Virus record (IMG/VR): IMGVR_UViG_3300046812_000287
Span: 1 to 64,000 of that record
Reading direction: 5' to 3' (one strand)
Length of the DNA stretch: 64,000 nt
DNA from: a virus
Shown: positions 26,187-62,260 of the stretch, one piece after another
Position numbering within the stretch: position 1 is the stretch's first letter
Layout: each line of letters begins with the position of its first letter
The notes under the pieces: generated by a model
Seen by the model: only the letters and a program-made list of their open reading frames with translations
The model's database searches: none
What the model was told of the DNA's origin: nothing
Position numbers and translations under genes: made by a program

Positions 26187-26363
26187 ATGGCACGAGCAAG
26201 CGTTAAGCTTATACACTATAGCTTGACCGGAAAGCTACGATGGAGCGGTCGCGTACTCGAACAAGAGTATAAGTGTGAGGTGACTGAGACGGATGAGATA
26301 GCATGTGAAAGCAGGATCATCAGCGAGACCATCAAGTGGATCGCAGTTCCGGAGAAGGACTGA
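26187..26363 (+). CDS. Small protein, 58 residues
   Basis: The ATG at 26187 is three bases after the previous stop. It is followed by a beta-rich sequence (VKLIHYSLTGKLRWSGRVLE, then YKCEVTETDEIACESRIIS). The stop overlaps the start of the SNF2-like gene (TGATG), supporting coupling. No family is recognised. Confidence 0.5.
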   Translation: MARASVKLIHYSLTGKLRWSGRVLEQEYKCEVTETDEIACESRIISETIKWIAVPEKD

Positions 26364-27835
26364 TGTACCAACCCCGACGCAAGGCCGACGAGAACCAGGT
26401 CGCGGCCATCAAGAAGATGCGCGGCAAGGAGGCCTTCGCGCTGCTGATGGCGATGCGCATGAGGAAGTCGAAGGTCATCATCGACGAGTTCGGGGAGAAG
26501 GAACTGAAGGGCCAAGCCAATGACTTGGTCATAATAGCTCCGGCTGGCTGCTACCGGACATGGTTAGAGGCGCTCAATGATGATCTTTCAACTGACCTTT
26601 GGTCGCGGCTCAGGGCCCATGTCTGGACCTCTGGGAGTAGCGTAGGCGAACGCAATCTGCGGCGTGACATGCTTGAGTACGGTCGCGCTTCTGACCCGCC
26701 GCGCTGTCTTATAATGAACGTGGAGGCGCTGTCACGTGCTGGAGATGCACGAGACTTCTTGGAGAGATTTCTTAATAGTCGTAACATGCGTCGGTCCATG
26801 GTCGCCGTCGACGAGTCGACCGTCATCAAGAACCACTCAGCCGCGCGGACGAAGTACGTCAACAGGACGATACGGCCGCTGGCGACCTACCGACGCATCC
26901 TGTCCGGGCTGCCCACGCCGCGCTCGCCGCTGGACCTATACTCGCAGTTCGAGTTCCTCGACTGGCGCATCCTCGGGCACAAGTCGTGGTGGACGTTCCG
27001 GGCGTCGGTCGCGCACCTGCGCCAGCAGTGGTTCGGAGGGCGCTCGGTCGTGATGATCGACCAGGACCAGGGCATGAACGGCTTCAAGCCGGAGGCCGTG
27101 GCCCAGCTGCAGAAAACAATTGCGCCATACTCCTACCGCGTCGAGTTCCGGCCGAAGGTTCCGACCACCTACTCGATCCGTGACGTGGAGATGACGCCCG
27201 AGCAGGAGAAGGCCTACCGCGAGATAAGGGACTTCGCCACGACCGAGCTCAGCGCTGGCGTACACGTGACTGCCACGGTCGTCATCGCGCAGATAATGCG
27301 CCTCCACCAGGTCCTCTGCGGACACACGGTGGACGAGCTGGGGAACGCGCACCACGTCCCGGAGAACCGGACCGTGGCGCTCCTGGAGCTGCTGGAGGAC
27401 TACGGCGGCAAGGCGCTGGTCTGGTGCAGCTACGACACCGACGTCCGCAAGGTCGCCGGGGCGCTGGCGGAGGAGTACGGGGAGGAGAGCGTCGCGCGCT
27501 TCTGGGGCGGGAACCTCAAGAGCCGTGACGAGGAGGACCGCAGGTTCAAGACCGACCCGCGCTGCCGCTTCTCGGTCGGGACGCCGGCCGCCGGAGGACG
27601 TGGAAGAACATTAGATATGGCGGACTTATCGGTATATTATTCCTCGACCGACAACCTTGAGCACCGTGACCAGTCCGAGCAGCGCACCATGGGCCGCGAC
27701 AAGGCGCGCGGCGTCGACGTGGTCGACCTGATATGCCGGGGGACGGTCGAGGAGAAGATACTCAGCGCCCTGAGGAAGAAGATCAACATGGCCCAAGTCA
27801 TCAACGGCGACACCTGGAGAGAGTGGATAGTATGA
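26363..27835 (+). CDS. SNF2-like superfamily 2 ATPase with unusual Walker A
   Basis: The 490-residue product has the SF2/SNF2 layout. There is a motif I region AFALLMAMRMRKSKVIIDEF (residues 24-43), motif II VDESTVIKN (149-157) and motif III LSGLPTPRSP. The second RecA-like domain has ALVWCSYDTDV, VGTPAAGGRGRTLD and SEQRTMGRDKA. In most phage relatives motif I reads like MRLGKT. Here the Gly before Lys is Arg (MRMRKSK), which is unusual for an ATPase. Such proteins remodel or unwind DNA-protein complexes. It starts at the ATG overlapping the previous stop. Confidence 0.82.
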   Translation: MYQPRRKADENQVAAIKKMRGKEAFALLMAMRMRKSKVIIDEFGEKELKGQANDLVIIAPAGCYRTWLEALNDDLSTDLWSRLRAHVWTSGSSVGERNLRRDMLEYGRASDPPRCLIMNVEALSRAGDARDFLERFLNSRNMRRSMVAVDESTVIKNHSAARTKYVNRTIRPLATYRRILSGLPTPRSPLDLYSQFEFLDWRILGHKSWWTFRASVAHLRQQWFGGRSVVMIDQDQGMNGFKPEAVAQLQKTIAPYSYRVEFRPKVPTTYSIRDVEMTPEQEKAYREIRDFATTELSAGVHVTATVVIAQIMRLHQVLCGHTVDELGNAHHVPENRTVALLELLEDYGGKALVWCSYDTDVRKVAGALAEEYGEESVARFWGGNLKSRDEEDRRFKTDPRCRFSVGTPAAGGRGRTLDMADLSVYYSSTDNLEHRDQSEQRTMGRDKARGVDVVDLICRGTVEEKILSALRKKINMAQVINGDTWREWIV

Positions 27836-27888: not shown

Positions 27889-28257
27889 ATGATCCGAGCT
27901 ATAGCCAAGGACTACGAGGACCGCCTGCGTGCCGACGCCGCTGAGGGCTTGTCGTACACCCAGACCGCCGCGCGCCACGACCTCAGAAGGATGCAGGTGG
28001 CGGGGATGGCCAAGCGCCTAGGCATCAGGTTCAGCGGTGCCCGCGCCAGCGCCCCGAGGCCTCCAAGCCCTTCGCGAGTGAAGAAGCCGCCGGTGCCGGC
28101 GGCGCAGTGCCTCGTCAGGCCTGACGTTCCGATACGAACAGTGGCGGTTAGGAATGACCGCAGCGGGCGCCCCGTGAGCTGCTGCTGGTCGGGGTGCGTC
28201 AAGCCGCCCGTGGCGGTCGGCAAGCCCTACTGCGACGAGCACTGGAGGCTGAGATGA
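27889..28257 (+). CDS. GcrA-like regulator
   Basis: The ATG at 27889 has GGAGG five bases upstream, giving 122 residues; an ATG at 27832 overlapping the previous stop is an alternative (141 residues). The N-terminal helix-turn-helix (YEDRLRADAAEGLSYTQTAA and LRRMQVAGMAKRLGIRF) matches the GcrA pattern in which a '.EGlS..qIA..lgv.R.av.gk..RLGl' unit is followed by a basic Pro-rich linker. The C-terminus SCCWSGCVKPPVAVGKPYCD-EHWRLR matches the terminal Cys/His segment of GcrA. GcrA is an alphaproteobacterial cell-cycle factor that works with sigma70 and GANTC methylation. The phage copy is shorter. Confidence 0.72.
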   Translation: MIRAIAKDYEDRLRADAAEGLSYTQTAARHDLRRMQVAGMAKRLGIRFSGARASAPRPPSPSRVKKPPVPAAQCLVRPDVPIRTVAVRNDRSGRPVSCCWSGCVKPPVAVGKPYCDEHWRLR

Positions 28258-29012
28258 GAGCGCTGCTAGTCGCCGCCCTGCTCGCGCCGCAGCTCGCGAC
28301 CGCCGCCGACCTGTCGGTGCCGCCGTCGGTGCTAGACCTGCCGAAGCACTACGACTGCCCGCTGGCGCAGGACGACGACGCGGTCCTGGCCGCGCTCCTC
28401 GATCTGGCGTTCCCCGACGTCATCCACCCGGAGGACGAGGACATCAACTGGGACGTCGTCAGGTGGCTTGAGTCGCGCATATTCTGCGTCAAGCCGGACC
28501 TGCTGGTGATAGCAGATGATGAGGAAGGGAGCTTCGGAGGCGGGAGCTTCGGAGGTGGCGGAGGCGGGAGCTTCGGAGGCGGGAGCTTCGGAGGCGGGAG
28601 CTTCGGAGGCGGGAGCTTCGGAGGCGGGAGCTTCGGAGGCGGGAGCTTCGGAGGCGGGAGCTTCGGAGGCGGGAGCTTCGGCGGAGGCGGAGGCGGAGGC
28701 GGAGGCGGAGGCGGAGGCGGAGGAAATATGACCCCAACTAACCCGCCGCATGTTACCCCTCACATGCCGACGCCGCCGGCCACCCCGCTGCCCGGGTCAA
28801 TATGGTTGTTTGCCTCTGGGCTGTTGCTTCTTGCCTTGACAAAGGTAGCGCGCCGCGTCCCGTCTCGTCCACCGGGAGGGGTTGATGTCGAGTTGGGGTC
28901 GCGGCGCGCGCCTAGCGATCGACGGGAGGAAACACGTCGACCGATAGCTAGTGCCCCTGGAGTGCCTTCAGCTGGGAGGACAGCTCCAGGACCTGGTTGT
29001 CGATGCTCTTGA
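28254..29012 (+). CDS. Exported Gly-rich repeat protein with PEP-CTERM-like end
   Basis: The ATG follows TGGAGG and gives 252 residues. Residues 1-18 are a signal peptide (MRALLVAALLAPQLATAA). Residues about 92-158 are GSFGG repeats and a poly-Gly run. Residues 178-201 (PLPGSIWLFASGLLLLALTK-VARR) form a Pro-Leu-Pro, hydrophobic helix and basic cluster, as in PEP-CTERM/VPLP sorting signals. Unlike typical sorting signals, about 50 more residues follow, rich in Arg, Pro and Ser, overlapping the convergent gene's end by 65 bases. It probably goes to the cell envelope. The role is unknown. Confidence 0.65.
   Translation: MRALLVAALLAPQLATAADLSVPPSVLDLPKHYDCPLAQDDDAVLAALLDLAFPDVIHPEDEDINWDVVRWLESRIFCVKPDLLVIADDEEGSFGGGSFGGGGGGSFGGGSFGGGSFGGGSFGGGSFGGGSFGGGSFGGGSFGGGGGGGGGGGGGGGNMTPTNPPHVTPHMPTPPATPLPGSIWLFASGLLLLALTKVARRVPSRPPGGVDVELGSRRAPSDRREETRRPIASAPGVPSAGRTAPGPGCRCS
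28527..28723 (+). repeat. 15-bp and 6-bp tandem repeats inside the Gly-rich gene
   Basis: The 15-base unit GGGAGCTTCGGAGGC occurs in near-perfect tandem from 28527. One variant carries a 9-base insertion (28542-28565), and seven uninterrupted perfect copies lie at 28566-28670. A GGAGGC 6-base repeat then runs to 28723. All units keep the frame. Such arrays change copy number by slippage. Confidence 0.9.
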
Positions 29013-32779: not shown

Positions 32780-33288
32780 ATGCCTGGGACCTTCATGCGG
32801 GCGCTGACCATCAGGAGGAGGTCACGCGGATTGATTAGGTGCGCCGGAGCTGCGACCGGCCAAGCTAGCCACCCGCACTTGCGCAGCGCCAGGGCGATCT
32901 TCGCGGAGCATATCGCGTGGTCGGCTAGGTGGAGGTGCTCCGGCAACACGAAGCCGACGATGGCCTTCCAGTCGTAGGGCTCGCCGATGCTGTCATTCAG
33001 GTACTTGTAGAAGGTCGCGTCCATCGTTCCGCCGAGGTCCAGGACCATGTCGCAGAGGCCGGCGGGAAAGGCCACCGGGTCGTAGCCGTCCGGCAGCCGC
33101 GCCACCTTCCCCGCGTCATAGCCGACCGGGCGAGCCTGGGTGCCGCCGTCCAGGCGCGACCCGACGTAGGACAGCCCGTCCGGCGTCAGCGCCTCCACGT
33201 GGCTGGGGGTGAATGGCATGCACGTCTTCTCCTGGAGGACTATTGCCTCGCTCCCCCAGCCGGTTCCCCGGACGAACCTTATCTTCAT
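32776..33288 (-). CDS. NlpC/P60-like (YiiX-type) cysteine hydrolase
   Basis: The 170-residue protein has a His in TPSHVEALTPDG and a Cys in HAICSAKIALALRK. This is the permuted order seen in YiiX/NlpC-P60-like papain-fold proteins, where the conserved Cys comes after the His. YDWKAIVGF is also typical. These enzymes cleave peptide or amide bonds, often in peptidoglycan or lipids. It lies between the sugar cassette and the endolysin. Confidence 0.6.
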   Translation of the reverse strand: MKIRFVRGTGWGSEAIVLQEKTCMPFTPSHVEALTPDGLSYVGSRLDGGTQARPVGYDAGKVARLPDGYDPVAFPAGLCDMVLDLGGTMDATFYKYLNDSIGEPYDWKAIVGFVLPEHLHLADHAICSAKIALALRKCGWLAWPVAAPAHLINPRDLLLMVSARMKVPGI

Positions 33289-34466
33289 ACCGCATCTCCC
33301 TGGCCAGTAGCGATGGCTAAGGGTTGCCCGGCCGGTAGAATGGCGCCTAAGGTAGCCGGCCCCTCGTTAAGCCCTACTCCGGGCATCCCTAGGCCTAAGA
33401 AATCGACTCCGGGGCGCCCCAGGAGGTCGCCCGTCGCCCCGGACAGGCTCCGGACGCGTCCGAGGTCCGCCTTGTGGGTCCCCCAGGCCCTCCAGAACGC
33501 CTGGCAGGCGACCCAGCGGGTCTTGCGGACGAAGTGGTTCCGGGCCACCTCCATGGGCACCCCGCACAATAGAACGTGGGAGGCCCCACGCTCTATCGCG
33601 ACCTTGGCGGCGAACAGGCCCGAGGACCCACCCCAGTCCTTCGTGGTGTGGGTGATGAATGGGTGGTTGGCGCGCCGGTTGTGGGCCCATACCTCCTTCG
33701 GGTCCGGGTGGTGGCCGGACCGGCGCAGGCTGAGCCATGCCGGTATCTTGTCCGGATGGAGGGAGGCGACGACGCACTCGCCCGGGAAGGTCGCGATCAT
33801 GTCGTTGACCACGATGAACTCCGGCTGCGCCCCGGCCGCCGCGCACAGCGCCCGCGCCTCCTCGACCTCTGCCCAGACGCCCTCCGCGCCTCCGACCACG
33901 ACCGTGACCCTAGAAGTAGAATTGGTCAAGCTAGCTGCTTGGCCAATTCTAGTTCCCTCGAAGACCATCGACTCGATGGCGTTGAATTTCTCGCCGATGA
34001 CGCGGTGGTGGCCCTCGACGTTCTGAAGATCGGGGTGTTGTGAGTTGTGAACCTCGCACTGGGCCGCGTCGAAGCCGACGAACTTGAGCGTGGCGGCCAT
34101 CAGCGAGGCGGTCCAGCAGGTACGGTGGCCGTGGCAGTTGATGATGGCGTCCAGCGCGCCGCGCAGGTCGGGCGTCTTGCCCCACTTGGCGGCCAGCTTG
34201 AAATAGTCATCATCGGTCGACCTGCGCACCTGCTCCACGGACGGGACCGTCACGCGCAGCACGCCGCCGACCGCCAGGACGCGCAGGCACTCGCGGAAGA
34301 ACTCGACGGCCTGGTAGTAGTCAACGTGCTCCACGCAGTGCTCGATGAAGATGAAGGAGACTGAGGAATCACTAAACGGAAGACGTTTAGTGATATCTAA
34401 GTCAGCGTCGTGGTTCTCCCAGCCGGGGAGCTTGTTGGTGCCGCACCCGAGGTTGAGCTTCAGCAT
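33285..34466 (-). CDS. Methyltransferase fused to DUF115-like domain
   Basis: The ATG at 34466 begins MLKLNLGCGTNKLPGWENHD, a class I methyltransferase SAM site. It is followed by DLDITKRLPFSDSS, EHVDYY and LRVLAVGGVLRVTVPS. About residues 200-393 form a second domain (VTVVVGGAEGVW, EFIVVNDMIATFPGE, SSGLFAAKVAIERGASHVLL and CGVPME), which resembles DUF115/MptE-like Rossmann proteins. The DUF115 family includes Maf-type flagellin glycosyltransferases. The methyltransferase part has a close paralogue at the end of the 37702-39987 protein. It may modify a sugar or a virion glycan. Confidence 0.68.
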   Translation of the reverse strand: MLKLNLGCGTNKLPGWENHDADLDITKRLPFSDSSVSFIFIEHCVEHVDYYQAVEFFRECLRVLAVGGVLRVTVPSVEQVRRSTDDDYFKLAAKWGKTPDLRGALDAIINCHGHRTCWTASLMAATLKFVGFDAAQCEVHNSQHPDLQNVEGHHRVIGEKFNAIESMVFEGTRIGQAASLTNSTSRVTVVVGGAEGVWAEVEEARALCAAAGAQPEFIVVNDMIATFPGECVVASLHPDKIPAWLSLRRSGHHPDPKEVWAHNRRANHPFITHTTKDWGGSSGLFAAKVAIERGASHVLLCGVPMEVARNHFVRKTRWVACQAFWRAWGTHKADLGRVRSLSGATGDLLGRPGVDFLGLGMPGVGLNEGPATLGAILPAGQPLAIATGQGDAV

Positions 34467-35137
34467 CTGTACAGTCCCTCGCGCAGGTCGTCGCGGGCGA
34501 AGATCATATTGTTCACCGCCCACGAGTGGAGGAAGTAGCCGGCCCCGTCGAGCAGCTCCTTCAGTTCCTTGGCGATGCTTCGGTCGGCGGTGAAGGCCTC
34601 AGCGCAGACCACCTTAGGCGTCGACGAGCTGCCCCAGTCGACGCTGCTCAGTATCTCCACGTCCAGGCCCTCGGCGTCGACGTTGAGCAGGTCCGGGAAC
34701 TCGCCGCCCGCGTGCTCAGTTATTAGTTCCGTGACGGTCGTCATTGGCACGTCTATCTCGGACGCGATGGCGTACTTGGAGGCCAGCGAGTGGTCGAACG
34801 AGCTCAGCCCCGGGGCGGTGGTGCGGTAGAAGCGACGCCCGCGCAGGTGGCCGGTGACGCCGGCGCAGATGTTCTTGTCCTCCGGTCGCAGCCTGGTGAA
34901 CTCCTCCATCAGGTCCGGGTTGGCCTCCACGTTGATGCCGCGACCACCGCGCTCGTACATCAGCGCCGTGTTGCTCAGGTGGTACGGGTGGTGCGCGCCG
35001 ATGTCCAGCCAGGACGGGTGGTATATCTTCAGCTGGTGGAACATCGCCAGCATGATCAGGTCGTCACCGTGCTGCGCGTAGGTGAAGCCGCCGAACACCT
35101 GGTCCTTGTGGTCGCTCCAGGGGAGGTCGTGCCTCAC
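34460..35137 (-). CDS. FkbM-family methyltransferase
   Basis: A GTG at 35137 overlaps the preceding stop (GGCGTGAGG), giving 225 residues. WLDIGAHHPYHLSNTALMYE and GGRGINVEANPD are the FkbM SAM-binding pattern. DLLNVDAEGLDVEILSSVDW is the second signature. FkbM enzymes O-methylate sugars or small molecules. It sits in the sugar cassette next to a glycosyltransferase. Confidence 0.82.
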   Translation of the reverse strand: MRHDLPWSDHKDQVFGGFTYAQHGDDLIMLAMFHQLKIYHPSWLDIGAHHPYHLSNTALMYERGGRGINVEANPDLMEEFTRLRPEDKNICAGVTGHLRGRRFYRTTAPGLSSFDHSLASKYAIASEIDVPMTTVTELITEHAGGEFPDLLNVDAEGLDVEILSSVDWGSSSTPKVVCAEAFTADRSIAKELKELLDGAGYFLHSWAVNNMIFARDDLREGLYRC

Positions 35138-35844
35138 GCCGCGGCCCCCGCCAGCAGGCCGATGGCCTCGACCCACCGGTCATAGATCGCGATGTCATCG
35201 CAGTGAGTGATCCAGTCGATGTCTCGCAGCGCGACGTTGTCTGGCGTCAGCACGTGCCTGTCGTCACGGAAGGCGTGCCACGGCATCATCTTGAGCCGGT
35301 CCCTGAGCAGGCTGAACAGCACGCTCTCACTGGTCACCGGGTAGCGCTTGAGCGTCGGCCATTCGTAGCGCCCTATCAGGTCGCTCTCCTCCAGGTACTT
35401 GACCCGGAAGAACATCAGCCCGGTCTCGACCCACCTCGGCTCCGGGCCGTTCCTCATCCCGCCGACGCGGGCAGACGCAGCGTCGACGCCGTCGCGCTCC
35501 ATCTCCTGGCATATTGGTCGGACTGGTAGGCGGAACAGTGAGTCGCCCTCAACGTGCGCGACATAGTCATACTCGCCCTCGACGGCGACCGCCAGGCCGG
35601 TGGTGAAGGCACGCCCCCACCCGTCGCGTCCGCCCTTGACCGCCGAGCCGATGTCGTCAGGGAAGGTGAGGTAGGCAATGTCAGGAGGGATGACGCGCTC
35701 AACGTCCCAATTCGAGCCGCCGCCGTCCACCAGCAGCAGGTCGACGTCGGGGTTGAGACGGCGGTGGAGCGCGATCCAGCGCTTCAGCAGCTCCTCGCGC
35801 TGGGTAGAGTCGACCCACATGGTACCGAACATCAGGACGCGCAT
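35134..35844 (-). CDS. Glycosyltransferase-like protein
   Basis: The 236-residue product begins MRVLMFGTMWVDSTQREELL. It contains RWIALHRRLNPDVDLLLVDG, GRDGWGRAFTTGLAVAV and YDYVAHVEGDSLFRLPVRPI. The EGDS acidic motif fits a GT-A-type nucleotide-sugar site. It is a clear paralogue of the middle domain of the 761-residue protein at 37702-39987 (HVEGDSLLRRPVEPI), so the two may act at successive steps. Confidence 0.65.
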   Translation of the reverse strand: MRVLMFGTMWVDSTQREELLKRWIALHRRLNPDVDLLLVDGGGSNWDVERVIPPDIAYLTFPDDIGSAVKGGRDGWGRAFTTGLAVAVEGEYDYVAHVEGDSLFRLPVRPICQEMERDGVDAASARVGGMRNGPEPRWVETGLMFFRVKYLEESDLIGRYEWPTLKRYPVTSESVLFSLLRDRLKMMPWHAFRDDRHVLTPDNVALRDIDWITHCDDIAIYDRWVEAIGLLAGAAA

Positions 35845-36755
35845 TTCAGTCTCATCTCGTCTACGGCGACCTGCACGGCGTCGGTCGACGTTAGCGTAGG
35901 CCGCCAGCCGAGCGCGCGCAGCCTATCGCAGTCGGCATACGAGTAGCGGCGTACGTCCCCAGCCCAGGTCTTGCCATCAAAGAAAACTGGGGCGCCGTCC
36001 GCGACGATCTCAGCGACCTTCCTGACAGAAGTCCTCCCGCTCCCAGCTGCTGCGTGGTAGACCGAGAATGGCGCCTTGTCCCAACAAAGCACGGACAGCA
36101 TGATGGCATCGAGAAGATCATCAACGTGCAGGTAAGGCTTAAGCTGGCTACCGTCGCCGTGAACTAGCAGCCCGTCAGCTCCCAGCCGCCTGAAGAGGTC
36201 GTGGACGACTCCGTGGGTGGTCCGGCTCCCGCCGACCACGTTGGGGAAGCGCATGATTATGGATCGCATGTCGTAGGCGTGCGTGAACGCGGAGACGTAG
36301 GCCTCCGCAGCGAGCTTGCTGGCGCCGTAGAAAGATATGGGACGCATCGGCCCGTGGTCCTCGCCCAGCGGCACATCGCTCTCACCGAACACAGCCGAGG
36401 AGCTGGCTAAGAACAGGCGCTTGACTCCATGGTCGCGCATCGCCTCCAGGATGGAGATGGTAGTCAGCAGGTTTAGTTCTAAGTCGAGTCTACTGTCTGA
36501 GGAGCCCGCCGCGATGTCAGAGTTGGCTGCGAGATGGAACACGCCGTCAAACTTCACCTCCTCAAACAAAGTATCTAGGCATCGTGCGTCCCTAGCGTAA
36601 AGGTGAAATCTGTCGTTGCCAAGCAGGTGGGCAACGTGCTCGGTGCTACCAAGTCGCATGTTATCAGCGCACCACACGTGATCACCAGACGTGATCAGCC
36701 GGTCGCAGAGGTGGCTGCCGATGAACCCGGCTCCGCCCGTGACGAGTAGCCGCAT
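35832..36755 (-). CDS. NAD-dependent nucleotide-sugar epimerase/dehydratase
   Basis: The 307-residue product opens with TGGAGFIGSHLCDRL (residues 6-20), the NAD-binding motif. It has HLAANSDIA and the catalytic SSSAVFGE and FYGASKLAAEAY (Tyr and Lys). This is an extended SDR of the GalE/RmlB-like type, which interconverts or dehydrates nucleotide sugars. It overlaps the GHMP kinase gene by 61 bases. Confidence 0.9.
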   Translation of the reverse strand: MRLLVTGGAGFIGSHLCDRLITSGDHVWCADNMRLGSTEHVAHLLGNDRFHLYARDARCLDTLFEEVKFDGVFHLAANSDIAAGSSDSRLDLELNLLTTISILEAMRDHGVKRLFLASSSAVFGESDVPLGEDHGPMRPISFYGASKLAAEAYVSAFTHAYDMRSIIMRFPNVVGGSRTTHGVVHDLFRRLGADGLLVHGDGSQLKPYLHVDDLLDAIMLSVLCWDKAPFSVYHAAAGSGRTSVRKVAEIVADGAPVFFDGKTWAGDVRRYSYADCDRLRALGWRPTLTSTDAVQVAVDEMRLKCAS

Positions 36756-37705
36756 GAACCCTCCTCCCTGTAGACTATCCTGCTTCCTATGAAATCAAAA
36801 CTGAATGGCACCCGCCGAAGACTACTCAGTGACTGGCAGATGGCCTCATGACGATCCAACGGCGCGCACAGAAGCAGGAAGCCGCTGCCGCCCGCGCCGA
36901 GTATCTTCCCGCCCGTGGCGCCCGCCGCCCGCGCCAGCGAATACATGCCGTCAATCTCGTCGGTGCTGATGCCCGGAGCCAGCGTCCGCTTGATCATCCA
37001 GGCCTCGTGCATCACGGGTCCAATGGCCGAGAAGTCCCGCCGGAGCCAGTCGACCAACCGCAGCATGGCCTTGAGGCCCTTGACGTTGGCCGTGGATCGC
37101 TCCTGCTGCGCGGTCAAGACCGTCGACGCAGCACGCCCGCCACCGACGTAGAACAGCATCAGGGTCCTCTGGATGGACGGGGGCATCATCAACGGCCTGA
37201 CGTCGACCAGACCATTGGCGTTGAACCTGAGGAAGTTGACGCCGCCGAACGCGCAGGCGAACTGGTCCTGCTTCCCTATCGGCTCGCGCAGGTCTTCTAT
37301 CTCGATGGCGCACGCCTCCTCCGCCAGAGCCATGGGTCCCCGGTCGTGACCGCGGTAGACGTGGAGCGCGTTCAGGAGCCCGACGCAGTAGGCGCTGGAG
37401 GAGCCGAGCCCGGTGCCGTGGGACGGCACGTCGGCCACCGACGTAATCTCGACGCCCGACTCAACATAAGTCCTTAGCAGCGCAGCGCAGGCTATCGGGT
37501 GCTCGACCTCCCCGGCACAGGCCACGTTCTCAGTGCGCGAGTAGCTGACGCGGACCTGCCCGTCGAACTTGCCATTGACGGTAACGTAGACATACTTGTC
37601 GATGGCCGCGCTGATGACCGCACCGCCGTGCTCGCGGTAGAACGAGGCAACGTCGGTTCCGCCGCCGACGAAGCTCATGCGAAGCGGGGTGCGGCTGACT
37701 ATCAC
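36695..37705 (-). CDS. GHMP sugar kinase, heptose-kinase-like
   Basis: The 336-residue protein starts SRTPLRMSFVGGGTDVASFY and then shows GGAVISAAIDKYVYVTV. It contains the phosphate loop PSHGTGLGSSSAYCVGLLNA and the C-terminal GATGGKILGAGGSGFLLL. These match GHMP kinases of the D-glycero-D-manno-heptose 7-phosphate kinase (HddA)-like branch, which phosphorylate sugars for nucleotide-sugar synthesis. The last 20-30 residues are Ser/Ala/Gly-rich and may be extended beyond the fold. It sits beside the epimerase. Confidence 0.82.
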   Translation of the reverse strand: MIVSRTPLRMSFVGGGTDVASFYREHGGAVISAAIDKYVYVTVNGKFDGQVRVSYSRTENVACAGEVEHPIACAALLRTYVESGVEITSVADVPSHGTGLGSSSAYCVGLLNALHVYRGHDRGPMALAEEACAIEIEDLREPIGKQDQFACAFGGVNFLRFNANGLVDVRPLMMPPSIQRTLMLFYVGGGRAASTVLTAQQERSTANVKGLKAMLRLVDWLRRDFSAIGPVMHEAWMIKRTLAPGISTDEIDGMYSLARAAGATGGKILGAGGSGFLLLCAPLDRHEAICQSLSSLRRVPFSFDFIGSRIVYREEGSCGYSSRAEPGSSAATSATG

Positions 37706-39987
37706 GAGGCCTCCGCCACTATCGTCTCGATCTCGAAGAACTTATCGCCGATAACTTTGTGATGTTTTTCAACATCACAAAGCGCCTTGTGTCGAGAGGT
37801 GTGGGGAGAGCACCTCTCGACATTCTCAAACCCGGCGAAGAACAGCAGCGCCTCCAGGACGGTCCACGTCCACGGCGACCGCGAGCCCCACGCGTAGAGG
37901 ATAGCGCGCGCCGGTCCACCGTTGGAAGCCGCCATCGCGGCGTAGTCGGCGTCCTCGCATTTGGCGATCTGCTCAAGCGACGGGACGGCTATCCTCAAGA
38001 CCCCCTTAGGTTTTAAGACTCGCCTGCACTCCTTGAAAAACCTGATGGCGTCATACTGCTCCAGCCTCTGCACGCGGTGCTCGCAGACGAGGTAGTCAAC
38101 CGAGGCGTCAGCGAACCCAAGTGGTTTGCTGATGTCTGCCTCACCATCGTCAGGTCCTTGTCCGAGGTGAACGACCTTGGTACCGCTGACGAAGCGGTCA
38201 TAGATGTCGTCTCGGTCCCAGCAGTGGGTAACCCAGTCCAGCTCGCCGACGTTCTCCGGCGTCACCAACTCCTTGTTCCCGCGCACGGCGCGCAGCGGGA
38301 GCAGTCGCAGGGCGCTCCCGAGCAGGCTTCGCACCACACGCTCCGGCGTCGGCGCGACGTTCCGCGCGCGCCAGTTGTACCGCTCCGTGAACCGACTCTC
38401 CCTTAGGAACTTGGTCGAGAAGAACATCAGCCCGGTCTCGACCCAGCCGCCCTCCTGCTGTCCCTTGCGTGTCACCACCGTGGAGGCCGCGCCGACGCCG
38501 TCGCGCGCCATCTCCCGGATGATTGGCTCCACCGGCCTGCGCAGCAAGCTGTCGCCCTCGACGTGGACCACGTAGTCGTAGCCGGAGTCGACCGCGGCGT
38601 CGAGGCCGAAGCTGAACGCCCGCCCCCACCCGTCGCGGCCTTGGCGCGAGAGGTGGCCGACGTTGCTGGGGAACGAGAACCAGGACAACTTCGCCATCTT
38701 CCCCGGCTCGTGCCTGGTGAAGTCGGCGAGGTCGAGTTCGCCCCAGCACGGCGAGGCCGAGTCTACCAGCAGCACGTCGCAGCTCGGGTTGAGTCGGCGG
38801 TGGAGCGACAGCCAGTGGCGAAGCAGTTTCAGCCTGTGGTCGGAGTCGACGTAGCACGTGGCGAGCAGCAGCACGCGCCTCCGCCGCCCGTGCTCCGCGA
38901 TGAATGACTTGATCTTCTCTAGTGCCGGAGCGAGAGCCGTGCGCTTGTCGCAGTCGTGAGATGAACTGTGGCAGTCGCACGGTCGGTCCGGGTTGATGCC
39001 GAGGGTCGGCGCCAGGTGGGCGCCCGCCGCCTGCGTCGTCTTGAACGACTCGCGCCCGCCGTAGACGATGATCGAGGGCGTGCCGACCGCCTGCGCAAGC
39101 ACCGGGGCGAAGCCGGCGTTGCAGAACACCAGGTCGGCCTCCGCCCACAGCGCCGCCATGGTGGGGAAGTCCAGCTCACCCTTGTGCAGCTTAACGTCGG
39201 CGTCCGCCTCAGGACCCACGACCCACTCGCGCCCGGGGTCGAGGTCGGCGACGCTCACGACGAAGTACTGGTCGCGCACCGAGCGGAACAGCTCGTCGTA
39301 CACGGCGGGGTCAGGGTTGCGCGTGGTTGAGTTCCACTCGCGGCGCAGCACCACCGGGCGATAGATCATCAGCGGCTTCCCGCCGAGGTTCCAGCTATCG
39401 ACAAGGCTCTTGGCCTTATCGATCCACTCAGGTCGAAGTGGCATCGTGAAGTCCGGGCGGTCGGAACTTACGCCCATCCGCGCCATGACTGTCCCGAGGA
39501 TGGAGCCGTGGCGATCAATCTCCGGCTTCCCGTAGCCCATCTTGATGACGTGTGCGCCCGGCGGCACGTGCGTCGGCTTGAACAGGTGGCGCTCACGCTG
39601 GACCGTCTTCGCCTGGGCGTGGAGGTTGGTGGTCTGCAGGACGAGGTGCAGGCCCTCTTCGATAAGGTCGTGGTACATCAGGTGGTGACAGCTGCGCAGC
39701 CACACCTCGTGCTTCTTCATGAGCTCGCGGAGCCCGGCCCGCTGGTGCAGGCAGTCCCCGATGCCGACCATGCCGTTGATGACTATCGGGGACTTTGGTG
39801 CCTCTCCCTTAACATCAACTACCAAGTCATTCTCCAGTGACCGAATGCGGTTGACCACCTCGCGCGACAGCGTCACGCTCTGAGTCGTTCCTGGCATGAC
39901 CTTTATCTGGCGCTGTGAGCCGACGATGCCGTCGTAGATGATGCGAGGCGTCTTCGTCGGGTTGCTCAGCTGGCACTGGACAATCAT
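37702..39987 (-). CDS. Three-domain protein: GT9-like, GT-A-like and methyltransferase-like
   Basis: The 761-residue product is a fusion. Residues about 1-65 are a beta-rich leader. About 66-360 resemble a GT9/heptosyltransferase fold (INGMVGIGDCLHQRAGLREL, WNLGGKPLMIYRPVVLRREW, and ADLVFCNAGFAPVLAQAVGTP). About 370-590 match the glycosyltransferase-like protein at 35134. About 595-761 match the methyltransferase part of 33285-34466, but with LGQGPDDGEAD in place of the LGCGTN SAM loop. The last domain is probably inactive as a methyltransferase. Together they may assemble and decorate a glycan. Confidence 0.68.
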   Translation of the reverse strand: MIVQCQLSNPTKTPRIIYDGIVGSQRQIKVMPGTTQSVTLSREVVNRIRSLENDLVVDVKGEAPKSPIVINGMVGIGDCLHQRAGLRELMKKHEVWLRSCHHLMYHDLIEEGLHLVLQTTNLHAQAKTVQRERHLFKPTHVPPGAHVIKMGYGKPEIDRHGSILGTVMARMGVSSDRPDFTMPLRPEWIDKAKSLVDSWNLGGKPLMIYRPVVLRREWNSTTRNPDPAVYDELFRSVRDQYFVVSVADLDPGREWVVGPEADADVKLHKGELDFPTMAALWAEADLVFCNAGFAPVLAQAVGTPSIIVYGGRESFKTTQAAGAHLAPTLGINPDRPCDCHSSSHDCDKRTALAPALEKIKSFIAEHGRRRRVLLLATCYVDSDHRLKLLRHWLSLHRRLNPSCDVLLVDSASPCWGELDLADFTRHEPGKMAKLSWFSFPSNVGHLSRQGRDGWGRAFSFGLDAAVDSGYDYVVHVEGDSLLRRPVEPIIREMARDGVGAASTVVTRKGQQEGGWVETGLMFFSTKFLRESRFTERYNWRARNVAPTPERVVRSLLGSALRLLPLRAVRGNKELVTPENVGELDWVTHCWDRDDIYDRFVSGTKVVHLGQGPDDGEADISKPLGFADASVDYLVCEHRVQRLEQYDAIRFFKECRRVLKPKGVLRIAVPSLEQIAKCEDADYAAMAASNGGPARAILYAWGSRSPWTWTVLEALLFFAGFENVERCSPHTSRHKALCDVEKHHKVIGDKFFEIETIVAEAS

Positions 39988-40523
39988 GACCTGTGGACCA
40001 CCTGAGTCTGGACCGTGTGCTCGATCTCGATGCCCGCTTCCTCGATGGCGCGTCGCACGCCCGGGCAGTAGTCGCAGTCGTAGTCGTCAAACACCATGAT
40101 GCCTCCGGGGGTCATTCGCGGAAGGAACCAGCTGATCGCGTCCCGCGTCGATACGTAGAAGTCAAAGTCAAGGTACACGAAGGCGAATGAGTAGTGCTCA
40201 AGGTGCTCGCACCTTGACGGAAATATGCCAGGGACGAGGATGATGTTCGTGAGACCAGCTACGTTGTCGCGTACGACTTCGATGGATGTGGCGCTGAACT
40301 CCCCCGCCGGGTGGAGGTCGCCGTATCCGCGCGCCTCCTCCGGCAGCCCAGTGAAGGTGTCGAAGCCGAACACCATCTTGTCTGGCAGCGCCTCCGCGAT
40401 AGCGCGCAGGCACCCGCCGAGGAACACTCCGCACTCAGCCGCCTCCCCGGGCACGTCCGCCACGGAGCGCGCCAGCTTGATCAGCGAGTCACGCTTCTCA
40501 TCAACGGTGGTCGAGAAGATCAC
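39984..40523 (-). CDS. TylF/MycF-family O-methyltransferase
   Basis: The 179-residue product contains EAAECGVFLGGCLRAIAEAL and FGFDTFTGLPEEARG near its start, and a later FVYLDFDFYVSTRDAISWFL and GGIMVFDDYDCDYCPGVRRA. These are the signatures of macrocin-type sugar O-methyltransferases (TylF/MycF). The acidic Asp residues in DFDFY and DDYD are the metal site. It probably methylates a sugar hydroxyl in this cassette. Confidence 0.85.
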   Translation of the reverse strand: MIFSTTVDEKRDSLIKLARSVADVPGEAAECGVFLGGCLRAIAEALPDKMVFGFDTFTGLPEEARGYGDLHPAGEFSATSIEVVRDNVAGLTNIILVPGIFPSRCEHLEHYSFAFVYLDFDFYVSTRDAISWFLPRMTPGGIMVFDDYDCDYCPGVRRAIEEAGIEIEHTVQTQVVHRS

Positions 40524-41380
40524 CGCGACACCTCCCAGAACTGGTTGTCGCCGGGCTTCTGGCGGTAGGTCGTAGCCCGGTTGCAGCTCTTGCAGATGGT
40601 GTCAGCGGGACCTACCTTGGCATTCTCCGCGCGCAGGCGGCCCATCCCCGGCGACTCAAAGATCGAGTAGTAGTCTCCAGTCAGCAGGTTGCCGACCCGG
40701 TGCTTGGTCGAGTAGTCCATGCAGCACAGCACCACGTCGCCGTTCGGGAACACAACGTTGTGGTCGTAGAACGGCGTGAACGAGCAGGACACCGGGCCGA
40801 CGTGATGCGTATGAGGGACATGAATGTCCGGGTCGACGTTGCCGGCGCGGTCCAGGCCCTCCCACTGGCGCGAGCTGGCCGGCATCTTCACGGACGGATG
40901 GACCCGCGAGCGGTTGTCCATCGTCATGGCCCGAAATGATCGCAGGCCCTTGCCTGCGGTCATAAACATGCTGAGCACCTCGTCGTACTCCGCCGAGGGC
41001 TTGTAGCCGCGCATGTTGCCGTTGGCGTCCGGCAGGTGCAAACAGACCTCCTTCACCTGGTCGCGGTGGTCCAGCATCAGCGCGACGACCCGGCGCGCGT
41101 CGTCCGGCGTCAGTCCGTACAGCGTCGTGTACACGACCACGTGGTAGCCGCAGCTGAGCGCCAGCTCCAGCATCTCTGTCGCGTTCGGGTTGGCCCACGG
41201 CTCGGACATCCCCGAGAAGTCGACCTGGACGTGGAGCGGAACCTTCGACAGTATCGTGGCGAAGTTCTCCACGGACATGTACTTCTCGGCGTCGCCGTAG
41301 CTCGCCTTAAGCTTGTCCTGCGGGCAGTAGGTGCACATCAGCGGGCACCCGACCATGGTGGTAATCTCAAGGCTGGGCAT
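40520..41380 (-). CDS. Radical SAM enzyme with SPASM-like end
   Basis: The ATG at 41380 gives 286 residues starting MPSLEITTMVGCPLMCTYCP. The three Cys of CPLMCTYC (12, 16, 19) bind the catalytic iron-sulfur cluster. VQVDFSGMSEPWANPNATEM and a C-terminal FPNGDVVLCCMDYST with GNLLTGDYYSIFES and CKSCNRA form a SPASM-like auxiliary cluster region. These enzymes do radical chemistry on peptides or sugars. In this cassette a peptide crosslink or sugar modification is possible. Confidence 0.85.
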   Translation of the reverse strand: MPSLEITTMVGCPLMCTYCPQDKLKASYGDAEKYMSVENFATILSKVPLHVQVDFSGMSEPWANPNATEMLELALSCGYHVVVYTTLYGLTPDDARRVVALMLDHRDQVKEVCLHLPDANGNMRGYKPSAEYDEVLSMFMTAGKGLRSFRAMTMDNRSRVHPSVKMPASSRQWEGLDRAGNVDPDIHVPHTHHVGPVSCSFTPFYDHNVVFPNGDVVLCCMDYSTKHRVGNLLTGDYYSIFESPGMGRLRAENAKVGPADTICKSCNRATTYRQKPGDNQFWEVSR

Positions 41381-53942: not shown

Positions 53943-54301
53943 TAGGTAATCTCCGCCTGGGTGATGGTCATGACGCCCTGAGCCGAAGTGATAACGCCGC
54001 CGGACGGGTCGACGATGGCTGCCTCGTGGTAGTAGTTGTCCAGTAGGTTGACGGTGTCTGCGCCCGCGATGCTGATCGTGAAGCTGATCGGCGCCGTGCC
54101 AAGGGTAATGCCACCTCCCTCAAGTGACTTCGTGATCACGGTGACCAGTGGGATGGTGACGACCCCGTGCTCCTGCTCATAAGCCTTCCAGACCACATTG
54201 AAGCCAGAGAGTATCTCGTCGTCGGGAGACGGCAGCTCGAAGTCAATCTCGACGCTGTTGCCGGCCGGGATGGAGAAGTTCTGGATCAGCGGTAGGGCCA
54301 C
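53942..54301 (-). CDS. Small virion protein, 119 residues
   Basis: The beta-rich protein reads IPAGNSVEIDFELPSPDDEI, then FNVVWKAYEQEHGVVTIPLV, and ends GGVITSAQGVMTITQAEIT. This looks like a BppU-type or short Ig-like fold. It starts at the ATG overlapping the repeat-protein stop and lies between the repeat protein and connectors. Confidence 0.55.
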   Translation of the reverse strand: MALPLIQNFSIPAGNSVEIDFELPSPDDEILSGFNVVWKAYEQEHGVVTIPLVTVITKSLEGGGITLGTAPISFTISIAGADTVNLLDNYYHEAAIVDPSGGVITSAQGVMTITQAEIT

Positions 54302-55869
54302 TATGCTGCCTCTCTCTTGCTGTTGACGCCGTGGAGCGTTATCCTCTCAGACCTGCTGCCGCTGAGCGCGTAGTCGTCGTCGTTGACGCCGTGGAGCACG
54401 ACGTGCCTCTTAACGCGCAACAGGTGCGCGAAGGACAGCGTCGGGGCGTCGGCGGACAAGTCCAGGTGGCCGGCGGCCACGACCAGCACGGAGCTTATGA
54501 CGACGTCCGGGGCGGAGCCGGCCAGGCCCAGGGAGCCGGCGGCCGGGACCAAATTGGTACTGACGACGCTTATCGTCGGGGCGTCGGCGGACAGCGCCAG
54601 GACGGCCCCGGAGACGACCAGGGGAGCGTCCTGGATGGCCGTCGGAGCGTCGGCCGATAGACCTAAGCTGGCGGCGGACGGGGCCTTGGGCGCATCCTGG
54701 GTGGCCGTCGGGAGGTCGCCGGAGAGCGTCAGGCTAGCGGCGGACGGGGTGGTAGCCAGTGCCTGGGTGGCGGTCGGGGCCACACCAGTGAGCGTCAGAG
54801 TGGCGGCGGACGGGGTGCAGAGGGCCGCGACTACGGCGGACGGGGCCGCGCCAGCGAGCGTCAGCGCGCCAGCTGGGGACACGAGGTTGAGGCTGCCACC
54901 GACTTGAGGGGCGTCCGCCTGTAAGAGGAGCGCGCCAGCGGGAACGACGACGCTTAGACCGACGACGGGCACGTTCCCCGTCAGCGAGACGGACGCCGCA
55001 GCAGGCGCGGCCGGGATGTTCTTGACCAAGCTCGGCGCGGCGCTAGAGAGCGCCAAGCTGGTCGCGGCCGGGGCCAGCGGGAAGTTCTCGATGACGGCCG
55101 GCGCCACGCCGGTGAGTAGCAGAGACCCGGAAGAGGGAGTCTCGATGAAGTTCGTCAGTAGCGACGGAGTCGCACCCGTCAGGACCAAGGAGGCGACGGT
55201 CGGGACCTTAGACAAGTTCTGCATCACGCTCGGAGCGACGCTAGAAAGCGCGAGCGACGCGGCCGACGGAGCGAGAGGTAGGTCTACGGCGAGCGACGGA
55301 GCGGCAGCCGACAGCGCGAGCGAGGCGACTGCAGGAGAGACTATGTCATTGACGGACAGCGTCGGAGCTGAGGAAGACAGCGTCAGCGAGCCGACCGCAG
55401 GAACGATGCTTATGTTAGTGGTGGCGACGACCGTAGGGGCAGCACCAGACAGCGCCAGCGACGCGACGGTCGGGATCGCTGGCGCAACTATCTCCAGCAA
55501 CACCGTGGTAGATACAGCGACCGTGTTCGCGTACACGCGGAAGGTGAATTTGTCGCCCACTGAAAAATTAGCGGGATCAAGCTGGACGCCGAACTCAAGC
55601 TCGGTGTAGCCCTCCGCCGGGATGACTAGGGGCCCGGTCTCGCCTGTGTTGTCGTACTGACCAGCCGCGAAGATGTCCCTGATCGGGACGTCAGCTGACA
55701 ACGCCAGGCTTCCCGATGGCGCCGATATGCTGGTTCCGACGGCCGCTGATGGCGTGGCGCCGGAGAGCGCCAGCGACGCCGCAGCAGGCACCAGAGCTAT
55801 GTTGCCTGATTGTGGCGCCGCGAAAGTAACGGGATAGCCACCGGGTCCTAGTCTAGTAACCTCTGCCAT
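54301..55869 (-). CDS. Long repeat protein with about 18 LxLxGxxP repeats, 522 residues
   Basis: Apart from a middle insertion at residues 70-130 (a beta domain with YTELEFGVQLDPANFSVGD), the sequence is built of 22-28 residue repeats with cores such as SLALSGATP, SLALSSVAP and TLTLTGVAP. I count about 18. The spacing suggests a beta-solenoid or bead-like stalk. The same repeat occurs in three copies at 1949-2383. The C-terminus has a repeated HGVN pair (VVLHGVNDDD and ITLHGVNSKR). It lies next to connector genes, so a decoration or fibre role is likely. Confidence 0.7.
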   Translation of the reverse strand: MAEVTRLGPGGYPVTFAAPQSGNIALVPAAASLALSGATPSAAVGTSISAPSGSLALSADVPIRDIFAAGQYDNTGETGPLVIPAEGYTELEFGVQLDPANFSVGDKFTFRVYANTVAVSTTVLLEIVAPAIPTVASLALSGAAPTVVATTNISIVPAVGSLTLSSSAPTLSVNDIVSPAVASLALSAAAPSLAVDLPLAPSAASLALSSVAPSVMQNLSKVPTVASLVLTGATPSLLTNFIETPSSGSLLLTGVAPAVIENFPLAPAATSLALSSAAPSLVKNIPAAPAAASVSLTGNVPVVGLSVVVPAGALLLQADAPQVGGSLNLVSPAGALTLAGAAPSAVVAALCTPSAATLTLTGVAPTATQALATTPSAASLTLSGDLPTATQDAPKAPSAASLGLSADAPTAIQDAPLVVSGAVLALSADAPTISVVSTNLVPAAGSLGLAGSAPDVVISSVLVVAAGHLDLSADAPTLSFAHLLRVKRHVVLHGVNDDDYALSGSRSERITLHGVNSKREAA

Positions 55870-55876
55870 CGTTTCC

Positions 55877-56491
55877 TCAGATGATGCTGAACAGGTCGCC
55901 GGAGACCGGCGTGGCCGGAAGCGCGCCGACCGTCAGCGTGGGCGTATTAGATGCCGTCGAGGCGCTGATAACGGAGGCGGCGCCGCGCAGCCCCGCCGTG
56001 GTGGTGTCGCCGTCGAACAAGACGACCCGACCCACGAACTGACTGACCACGACGCCCGACGCAGCGGCACCAGCAATGGTTAGAGCTGAGGTCGGTACCG
56101 ACGTGGTCGAGCCGCCCGTCGTCAGCGTCCCGCGCGCGATTGCCTTGGTGGTCTTGTCTAGGTTGGTGCGCTCCGTCATCAGCGAGAAGGAGCCGACCAC
56201 GTAGCCGACCATGCTCACGCCGTTGAGAGTGCCAGTCGTGATCACGACAGAGAAGTCATTGTCCGAGGCATAGAACGAACTGCTCTGCGACGTGTCCACG
56301 GCGACGTTGTTCATGCCGGTGCGGGAGTCGTAGTCGACGGACAGCGTGACGCCAGACGTGCTCTCGGTTAAGGAGTTCTTGTAGACGCTGATCGCGGGCG
56401 AGCCCGCAAGCGTCGTCGGGACCCCGTTGACTGAGGTTGTGAAGTTGAAAACGACCGTAGAGCCTACGGCCCGGTCTCCGAGGTCACTCAT
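55877..56491 (-). CDS. Virion protein with N-terminal BppU-like domain, 204 residues
   Basis: The sequence STVVFNFTTSVNGVPTTLAG, then SPAISVYKNSLTESTSGVTL and SVDYDSRTGMNNVAVDTSQS, resembles BppU-type modules that are common in phage tails. The second half is Ser/Thr/Ala-rich, with a final SGDLFSII. It sits with the Gly-rich fibre genes. Confidence 0.6.
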   Translation of the reverse strand: MSDLGDRAVGSTVVFNFTTSVNGVPTTLAGSPAISVYKNSLTESTSGVTLSVDYDSRTGMNNVAVDTSQSSSFYASDNDFSVVITTGTLNGVSMVGYVVGSFSLMTERTNLDKTTKAIARGTLTTGGSTTSVPTSALTIAGAAASGVVVSQFVGRVVLFDGDTTTAGLRGAASVISASTASNTPTLTVGALPATPVSGDLFSII

Positions 56492-57417
56492 GATGTCTTA
56501 CCTGCCCACTGTATGACCCAGATTTCGCCGCGCGCGCCGACGCCGCCGTTGCCTGCTGTCACGCCGTTAACTGTACAGCCTCCGCCTCCTCCGCCGCCGC
56601 CGGGAATGCCCCCGGCCCCGCCGGCCGTCGGGACGGTCGCACTGGAGTCACCGCCCGCACCACCGCCACCCGGATAGCCAAAGCCTGGAGCACCGGCGTT
56701 AGCGCCGTGGGTCTTTACCGGCTGGTCACGACTCTGGCCGCCTGAGCCGCCGCTCCCGTAAGCGGCATTTCCTTTACCGCAGCCCGCTCCACCGCCAGCG
56801 CCGCCGCGAACAGCATTGCCGCCGACCGGGCCGGTCGTGTTGGAAGCCACACCGCCGGCCCCAGAGCCGCCACCGAATAGTCCGGTATTGGCTGTGCCGA
56901 CTGCGCCGAGGCCGCCGATCACGCCGCCGTTGGTGCCCGCCGCGCCCGCGGTTCCGATGACCCCGTTGCCACCTGCGCCGTCTAGTCCCGCACCGCCGCC
57001 GCCACCCGTCGTGCCGTTGGCGACATCGCCGCCGGCCCCGCCGCCACCACCGTATGCTGTGAGCGTGACGCCGTTGATGGTGAAAGTTGTGTTACTGCCA
57101 GAGCCTCCTGCAGTTCCGCCTACGCTTGTCCCTGACGAGCCTGCGCCGCCAGTTACCTGCGCTCCGACCGTATAGGTTTCCGGGCTAGTAAATTGGGACG
57201 CCGCATAAACGCGATCGATCACCATGCCGCCCCCTCCGCCGCCAGCACCGCTCGCCGTCGAGGCCGAGGTATCTGTTGCGCCCCCGCCGCCGGGTCCGCC
57301 CCCGCCGATCAAGATCAGGCGAACATGCGTCGCCCAGGGCTTCTTGGTCCACGATTGCGCCGTCCCGGTCGTGAACTTGTCAACGTAAACATTCTGCTGA
57401 AGATCGAGGACGCTCAT
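56488..57417 (-). CDS. Gly-rich fibre protein 1, 309 residues
   Basis: The N-terminal part (YVDKFTTGTAQSWTKKPWAT-HVRLILIGGGGPGGGG) matches the 'sW.kP.wa..vrv.liGgGGgGGgG' start of phage Gly-rich fibre proteins. The body is an extended Gly-rich polyglycine II-like region (for example VANGTTGGGGGAGLDGAGGN). It ends GAGGIPGGGGGGGGCTVNGV and GEIWVIQWAGK. It is a tandem paralogue of the next gene. It likely forms stiff fibres for receptor binding. Confidence 0.78.
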   Translation of the reverse strand: MSVLDLQQNVYVDKFTTGTAQSWTKKPWATHVRLILIGGGGPGGGGATDTSASTASGAGGGGGGMVIDRVYAASQFTSPETYTVGAQVTGGAGSSGTSVGGTAGGSGSNTTFTINGVTLTAYGGGGGAGGDVANGTTGGGGGAGLDGAGGNGVIGTAGAAGTNGGVIGGLGAVGTANTGLFGGGSGAGGVASNTTGPVGGNAVRGGAGGGAGCGKGNAAYGSGGSGGQSRDQPVKTHGANAGAPGFGYPGGGGAGGDSSATVPTAGGAGGIPGGGGGGGGCTVNGVTAGNGGVGARGEIWVIQWAGKTS

Positions 57418-58316
57418 TCTGTGATAACGATGACAATGCCACCGCCCCCAATTCCACCAGCGCCCGGCGTTCCGCCCGTATTTGTATTTCCTCCGCCGCC
57501 GGCACCGCCGCCTGGAAATCCACCGTTGCCGCCAGCGCCACCTATTGTGGCGCTGGTTCCTCCTCCGCCGCCACCCGAGCCTGCATCACCAAAAGTGCCT
57601 GAAGTGCCGTTGGAGCCAGCCATTCCTGTGGAGGCTGCTGCGCCAACGCCGCCGACAGAATTACCAGGGCCTTGGCCGCCTGCTGCGCCGCCCTGATATG
57701 AAGGCGGAGTGCAACCGCCGCTGCCGCCGCCACCACCGCCGCCGAGGACCGCTTGCCCGCCGGCGAATGCAGTATTGCCGCCGCCCGCACCACCGCCGCC
57801 ACCGCCGACGCCGATATTCGCAGCGCCAACACTTGATCCAGAAATCCCGCCGACAGCGCCGCCGTTTGTCCCGGCCGTTCCACCGCTCGCGCCACCAGCG
57901 CCGCCCGCGCCCGCGAGGCCAGCACCTCCGCCGCCGCTCCCGTGAGAAGCCCCCGATCTATCGCCCGCGCCTCCGCCATAGGCCGTATGGATTGCGACAG
58001 TCGTGCCGCCGAACGTGCTGTTACCGCCTGCGCCGCCAGCTGCCCCAGGGGTGCCGCCTGCGCCCGATGTCCCGCCAGCCCCTACGGAATACGCTTCAGT
58101 CGCTCCTAAGTCGCTCGGCTGGAATACGGCCGACAACCATCCACCACCGCCGCCGCCGCCAGTGCCAAAATTTTGACTACCGCTGGTGCCGCCGCCCCCG
58201 CCACCACCACCCGCTCCGGTGAGAGTGACACGGATGAGCGTAGCCCACGCAGGCTTAGTCCAATTGCCTGAGCCTGTCGTGAAGACCTGGACGTCGGTGA
58301 GGCCGATCTGGGTCAT
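57414..58316 (-). CDS. Gly-rich fibre protein 2, 300 residues
   Basis: It is a paralogue of the gene at 56488, with the same start logic (FTTGSGNWTKPAWATLIRVT-LTGAGGGGGGGG), a Gly-rich body and an end IGGGGIVIVITE. It overlaps its neighbour by four bases. Two copies side by side suggest a duplication and a possible heteromeric fibre. Confidence 0.78.
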   Translation of the reverse strand: MTQIGLTDVQVFTTGSGNWTKPAWATLIRVTLTGAGGGGGGGGTSGSQNFGTGGGGGGGWLSAVFQPSDLGATEAYSVGAGGTSGAGGTPGAAGGAGGNSTFGGTTVAIHTAYGGGAGDRSGASHGSGGGGAGLAGAGGAGGASGGTAGTNGGAVGGISGSSVGAANIGVGGGGGGAGGGNTAFAGGQAVLGGGGGGGSGGCTPPSYQGGAAGGQGPGNSVGGVGAAASTGMAGSNGTSGTFGDAGSGGGGGGTSATIGGAGGNGGFPGGGAGGGGNTNTGGTPGAGGIGGGGIVIVITE

Positions 58317-62180: not shown

Positions 62181-62260
62181 GAGCAAATCAACCACGTCAA
62201 GACGAAGCCAAGCGAAAAGGCAGCCATTACCGCAAGCGAAAACAGCTTGAGCTCACTCAT
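62177..62260 (-). CDS. Tiny membrane protein, 27 residues, between the two repeat copies
   Basis: The ATG overlaps the methyltransferase stop, and the TGA overlaps the fragment start. The product is a single hydrophobic helix (MSELKLFSLAVMAAFSLGFV and LTWLICS). It fills the gap between the duplicated segments. Coupling suggests translation, but its size leaves doubt. Confidence 0.45.
   Translation of the reverse strand: MSELKLFSLAVMAAFSLGFVLTWLICS

Follow-up and report, generated by a model that had tools for sequence, protein, structure and literature searches.

Most reports to date of phage-encoded enzymes that glycosylate virion proteins concern mycobacteriophages, whose capsid and tail tube are modified in this way (Freeman et al., 2023, as summarised in PMC11256854 and PMC12619734). 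Here we analysed a 64,000-nucleotide stretch of viral DNA (the window; positions 1 to 64,000 of the IMG/VR record IMGVR_UViG_3300046812_000287), in which eight open reading frames (ORFs) at 33285-41380, all on the minus strand and with neighbouring starts and stops that overlap or touch, form a cassette of glycosyltransferase, methyltransferase and accessory genes, as the earlier note on this DNA had it. Like the mycobacteriophages, in which such enzymes act on virion proteins, the window phage encodes its own glycosyltransferases; as far as those summaries describe the mycobacteriophage system, the window is set apart by a multi-domain fusion carrying a domain related to a protein encoded beside the major capsid gene (the capsid-neighbour domain, NTD), by its methyltransferases and by a GT42-like domain. 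We conclude that the cassette is probably a module for the glycosylation and methylation of virion proteins, virion decoration being the most likely role because part of the fusion resembles the protein encoded beside the capsid gene.

The core of the cassette consists of a GT9-like GT-B domain, a GT-A domain, a class I methyltransferase and a GT42/DUF115-like domain of sialyltransferase fold. Pseudomonas phages D3 (orf7, orf12 and orf13) and PAJU2 (ORF010-012) resemble it in having GT42-like (phrog_4603), GT9-like (phrog_6804) and methyltransferase genes among their head and tail genes. They differ from the window in that the genes are separate, no GT-A was detected, the methyltransferase is of another family and the NTD finds no match; accessory methyltransferases, a kinase and a radical SAM gene, all present in the window cassette, were not seen in the D3 and PAJU2 stretch. 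D3 orf13 was considered as a homologue of the cassette methyltransferase family, and no homology was detectable. In Escherichia phage P1, pmgO encodes a phrog_4603-type sialyltransferase-like protein and lies in a late operon with the annotated glycosyltransferase gene pmgQ, whereas the GT9-like part of the window core was not found in P1. The genes pmgO, pmgP and pmgQ were nonessential in a CRISPR interference (CRISPRi) screen (PMC10695390), and the late genes pmgO, pmgP, ppp and pmgQ (NC_005856, 79592-82150) might serve as a relative of such a module that can be studied in the laboratory. The capsid glycosyltransferase of PBCV-1 (PDB 2p73), for which a viral capsid protein is the described target, shares the GT-A fold with the window GT-A (Z 13.9), although the identity is 6%, the virus is eukaryotic and the fold is common to many transferases.

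The connection between the fusion and the capsid lies in its first ~60 residues, which account for weak extra matches right beside the capsid gene when the GT9 alignment is compared with whole records. A hidden Markov model (HMM) of the NTD was built solely from fusions and tested on 35 loci fetched by capsid similarity. At 32 of these loci (30 at E ≤1e-4) it picked out the gene immediately downstream of the capsid gene; a set of 12,442 short ORFs gave no further match. In the opposite direction, an HMM made from the capsid neighbours recovers the fusions (best 2e-14), and the two families align with an hhalign probability of 98.8% (E 1e-16). The capsid-neighbour HMMs did not detect the D3 gene beside its capsid gene. 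In the window, the small protein carrying this domain is encoded beside the major capsid gene at 62844-63248 (minus strand; exact start uncertain) and is a possible virion partner of the fusion. Adjoining it in the head gene block is a further class I methyltransferase gene (62257-62841, minus strand; phrog_24759, 7.6e-5), which has a 58% identical counterpart in the phage L003, the closest relative of the window phage, and may belong to the same system as the cassette.

The cassette is also linked to virion genes by its distribution. Of the contexts fetched, about half show recognisable tail genes of the window type beside the core, in contig L013 the core is located between head and tail genes, and nine of the ten relatives that have the window capsid and tail protein, and in which the downstream region is covered, contain the core. 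Furthermore, the C-terminal GT42-like part is present in all 13 fusions with an NTD and in 2 of the 19 without one (p 3e-7, a value that overstates the case because the contigs are related).

The window cassette is an enlarged version of a core that is conserved among phages. Viral contigs were scanned with the fusion, its GT-A part and the radical SAM gene as queries; the GT-A part was found in at least 34, nearly all with the core in the order GT9-like, GT-A, methyltransferase, so the earlier description of such a gene set as unusual in a siphophage does not stand. In 13 contigs the GT9-like, GT-A, methyltransferase and GT42-like domains form one open frame of ~977-1282 codons. Elsewhere the core is permuted or split, with the GT42-like domain (phrog_4603) at the N terminus in Mesorhizobium-type prophages and in an upstream gene in other contigs. 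As the core domains are fused in differing orders, the enzymes presumably work in one pathway. The GT9-like part occurs in 29 phage records, of which at least 27 are also listed for the GT42-like part, and the GT42-like, GT9-like and methyltransferase genes lie close together in the cultured phages D3, PAJU2, PMG1 and Eowyn, being adjacent in PAJU2 and Eowyn. The GT-A part is essentially a phage family, to judge from a scan of ~85,000 bacterial and archaeal genomes with short exact patterns, which found it in only five contigs (two Mesorhizobium genomes, one record named 'Bacterium' and two short contigs of one Rhodospirillaceae metagenome-assembled genome). A search for near-identical DNA among cultured phages gave no match. 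No paper on this enzyme set was found among open-licence papers, and in the papers open to search there appears to be no description of the set, the fusion, the capsid-neighbour domain or the extension to D3-type phages.

The fusion itself comprises 761 residues (37702-39987; this and all other cassette features are on the minus strand) and begins with the NTD of ~66 residues (39790-39987). The GT9-like domain that follows (38896-39789) carries a C-terminal CDCHx3HxCDK signature, matches phrog_6804 at 2e-38 in PHROGs and aligns with D3 orf12 at an hhalign probability of 99.8%. The Pfam family PF01075 (GT9) scores below its gathering threshold for the window protein (E 0.12, 12.2 bits against a cut-off of 22) and 12 of 25 homologues match it with weak E-values (best 0.0058); a PDB sequence-profile search with the domain gave no match. 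The earlier assignment to GT9 is therefore weak by Pfam and strong by homology to D3 orf12, and we use the label 'GT9-like' on account of the kinship to phrog_6804 and D3 orf12, the PF01075 cut-off being missed. Next comes the first GT-A copy (38158-38895), which is the nearer of the two window copies to the GT-A of other phages, and last a degenerate methyltransferase domain (37705-38184). Its S-adenosylmethionine (SAM)-binding motif I (GxGxG-like; NLGCGTN) is gone in the window and in L003 and kept in the 26 other aligned copies, so that the domain looks catalytically dead, yet it is still conserved, with a ratio of nonsynonymous to synonymous substitution rates (dN/dS) of ~0.18 (dS is near saturation and the value is rough).

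We propose that the NTD would let the core enzyme dock on the capsid-neighbour protein or on the particle during assembly, and that nucleotide sugars made by the host would be used to build a short sugar chain on a virion protein. The kinase-epimerase pair of the cassette would alter or supply one sugar, and the methyltransferases (that of the MT-GT42-like gene, TylF and FkbM) would cap or decorate the sugars. The core, a single chain in many relatives, is split here and expanded by a second GT-A, a second, degenerate methyltransferase, FkbM, TylF, the radical SAM enzyme and the kinase-epimerase pair. Established by the analysis are the genes present, their folds and domain homologies, the conserved order and the link to virion genes; we infer a virion protein as the acceptor, together with the order of the steps, the identities of the sugars and any benefit, be it shielding, adsorption or stability. 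Speculatively, the acceptor could be the capsid-neighbour protein, the capsid protein or one of the proteins at 54301-59917, between head and tail genes, which are serine/threonine-rich or contain repeats. A bolder proposal, which we put forward tentatively and hold to be somewhat doubtful, is that one polypeptide serves as a glycan assembly line, docking via the domain derived from the capsid neighbour and writing a methylated oligosaccharide onto virion proteins, with variants in D3, P1 and many uncultivated phages.

Several observations weigh against virion decoration. No function is known for the capsid-neighbour protein, so that 'virion targeting' rests on gene position; part of the linkage to virion genes would be expected simply because the genes are neighbours; and three-domain forms of the fusion exist without the NTD. 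In one of the ten relatives mentioned above neither the core nor any other cassette enzyme was found, so a phage with these capsid and tail genes can dispense with the cassette. Finally, the cassette lies beside receptor-binding-like and possibly lysis genes. The proximity to receptor-binding-like genes also favours the main rival explanation, in which sugars or methyl groups would be added late in infection to host lipopolysaccharide (LPS), O-antigen or another surface glycan, which would block superinfection or keep progeny from binding again to debris. Classical GT9 proteins are LPS heptosyltransferases, and FkbM, TylF and HddA-like kinases are common in surface polysaccharide clusters, which counts for an action on the envelope as well. 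On the other side, no membrane segment was predicted in any of the eight cassette proteins, to which the scan was confined (maximum 19-residue hydropathy ≤1.39; flippase and polymerase families were not searched), the fusion enzyme bears the capsid-neighbour domain, and in D3, PAJU2 and Mesorhizobium-type prophages the set is placed among head genes and not in a lysogenic conversion region. We thus consider envelope modification unlikely. The earlier note had left open whether virion or envelope is modified, which was reasonable, and it is the virion branch that is backed by the NTD, by co-inheritance with virion genes and by the D3 and PAJU2 operons.

The second GT-A copy, a 236-residue protein (35134-35844) first described as glycosyltransferase-like, can now be specified as a GT-A fold. 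Its AlphaFold model (pLDDT 92.8, 30 aligned sequences) has many GT-A entries as top structural matches, with Z of 14-15 and up to 15.4 (VIA). The EGD motif is kept in this copy; E99-x-D101, an acidic motif of the DXD type that is invariant in 30 homologues, is the putative metal-binding motif, and the C-terminal H214 is likewise invariant. Comparison of the GT-A profile with PDB sequences returned only spurious designed TIM barrels over ~25 residues. A recent tandem duplication as the origin of this copy finds no support in the tree, which puts both copies before the split from L003; it leaves their sister relation unresolved.

The last gene of the cassette encodes a 393-residue methyltransferase fused to the GT42/DUF115-like domain (~33285-34466 after trimming of the start). 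The methyltransferase has an intact SAM-binding motif, LNLGCGTNKLPG, and matches PF08241 (2.8e-6). The model of the second domain (pLDDT 83, with a low-confidence tail) matches the Campylobacter CstI and CstII entries best, with Z of 11-12 that exceed those of unrelated folds; a profile search against PDB sequences gave nothing of note. The domain, previously called DUF115, is thus refined to a GT42 fold like that of CstI and CstII, and 6 of its 17 homologues match PF01973 (the former DUF115). N41, H57 and H131 are conserved in the GT42-like alignment A4 and may include the catalytic His expected of a GT42 enzyme with a CMP-sugar donor. In PAJU2 and Eowyn the homologues carry the annotation 'structural protein', and the NTD could serve as an attachment domain; both points would fit an explanation in which the enzymes, or the GT42-like part, are virion components that are carried or injected and act on the host at entry. 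We regard this as improbable, as the records give no experiment behind those annotations, most homologues are labelled as enzymes or as unknown, and nucleotide-sugar donors are cytoplasmic.

The remaining genes bear out the families proposed in the earlier note, with Pfam and NCBIfam support for the radical SAM enzyme, TylF, GHMP kinase, epimerase, FkbM and methyltransferase. Two are accessory genes at the upstream end. The radical SAM/SPASM enzyme (286 residues; 40520-41380; PF13186 1.1e-8, PF04055 2.7e-6) has an intact CxxxCxxC motif, and its gene is also found in the cassette region of L010-L012, L020, L031, L037 and L039; the TylF-like O-methyltransferase (179 residues; 39984-40523; PF05711 1.7e-16) is 70% identical to its L003 counterpart. 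Downstream of the fusion are an HddA-like GHMP sugar kinase (336 residues; 36695-37705; PF00288 5e-11), an NAD-dependent nucleotide-sugar epimerase/dehydratase (307 residues; 35832-36755; PF01370 1e-46) and, past the second GT-A, an FkbM methyltransferase (225 residues; ~34460-35137 after start trimming; PF05050 1.3e-13). The kinase misses the cut-off of the HddA NCBIfam equivalog (129 bits against 600), yet this is its best family match, and the closest solved chain, 3k85, is annotated as a heptose kinase.

In the closest relative, L003 (71.7 kb), the radical SAM, TylF, fusion, GT-A, FkbM and MT-GT42-like genes are kept in order at 63-77% identity. The kinase and epimerase are not in the L003 cassette, the kinase being found nowhere in that record, and the second copies of both GT-A and methyltransferase are present in both phages. 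The two have portal, capsid (80%), tail genes and cassette in common, and almost no replication or lysis genes (low-complexity filter on). Two further records, IMGVR_UViG_3300046511_000142 (L117) and 3300046679_000202 (L084), are apparently fragments of the same or a very close phage: the 3300046511 capsid matches that of the window, and its g863 homologue is 100% identical over 655 residues.

Among the relatives examined, the kinase-epimerase pair is confined to the window phage, in agreement with a cassette of metabolic cargo acquired by chance and lacking a specific virion role; we give this only a slight probability, in view of a core order and fusion conserved across dozens of contigs and of purifying selection on all cassette parts (dN/dS is rough here, with dS near saturation). 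The glycan pathway, which had been called complete, turns out to be partial: nucleotidyltransferases (PF00483, PF12804) and a GmhA-type isomerase (PF13580) gave no match in the 71.9-kb record with controls working, the L003 cassette does without the kinase and epimerase, and one methyltransferase domain looks dead. With no sugar nucleotidyltransferase found, the phage presumably relies on host donors. The sugars could in principle be destined for hypermodified DNA bases, since DNA glycosylation by phages has precedent (Pyle, 2024, as cited in PMC12619734). We think this very improbable, as a thymidylate-synthase homologue was not found in the same record (control working; other base-modifying routes were not searched), the genes are in a late operon position and the methyltransferases are of types typical of sugars.

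The flanking genes fit the earlier description in part. Those upstream, taken to encode receptor-binding proteins, have no family match, and the role is plausible only because their N termini are conserved while the remainder varies; for the supposed lysis genes downstream, the two nearest have no Pfam match and no lysis PHROG was found. Between head and tail genes, 54301-58316 encodes repeat-rich proteins, including a repeat rich in serine and alanine ('SLALSGAAPS' type) and two glycine-rich proteins that match PF21722; the L003 phage has a fused 1221-residue counterpart. The rightward block ends with a gene for an SNF2-type helicase (26336-27835, plus strand). An ORF at 28194-29012 (plus strand) ends with a glycine-serine repeat and then 'PLPGSIWLFASGLLLLALTKVARR', resembling a PEP-CTERM-type sorting tail; the ORF possibly represents minus-strand genes read in antisense. 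A scan for promoters and terminators found signals no more frequent than in shuffled sequence. Perfect or near-perfect hairpins with stems of 10-12 bp, mostly AT-rich, lie inside coding genes of this GC-rich genome (33913-33955, 34368-34394, 37755-37782, 37790-37822, 15893-15926, 18100-18124 and 18469-18496), four of them within the two methyltransferase-bearing genes of fused type in the cassette. The window contains eight perfect hairpins, mononucleotide shuffles contain 1-2, and there are none in 21 kb of L003.

If the cassette does decorate virions, a function would be in hand for phrog_6804, at present of unknown function, and for phrog_4603. Furthermore, the spread of sugar coating among phages, and its role in adsorption, stability and immune recognition, would become testable in D3, PAJU2 and P1.

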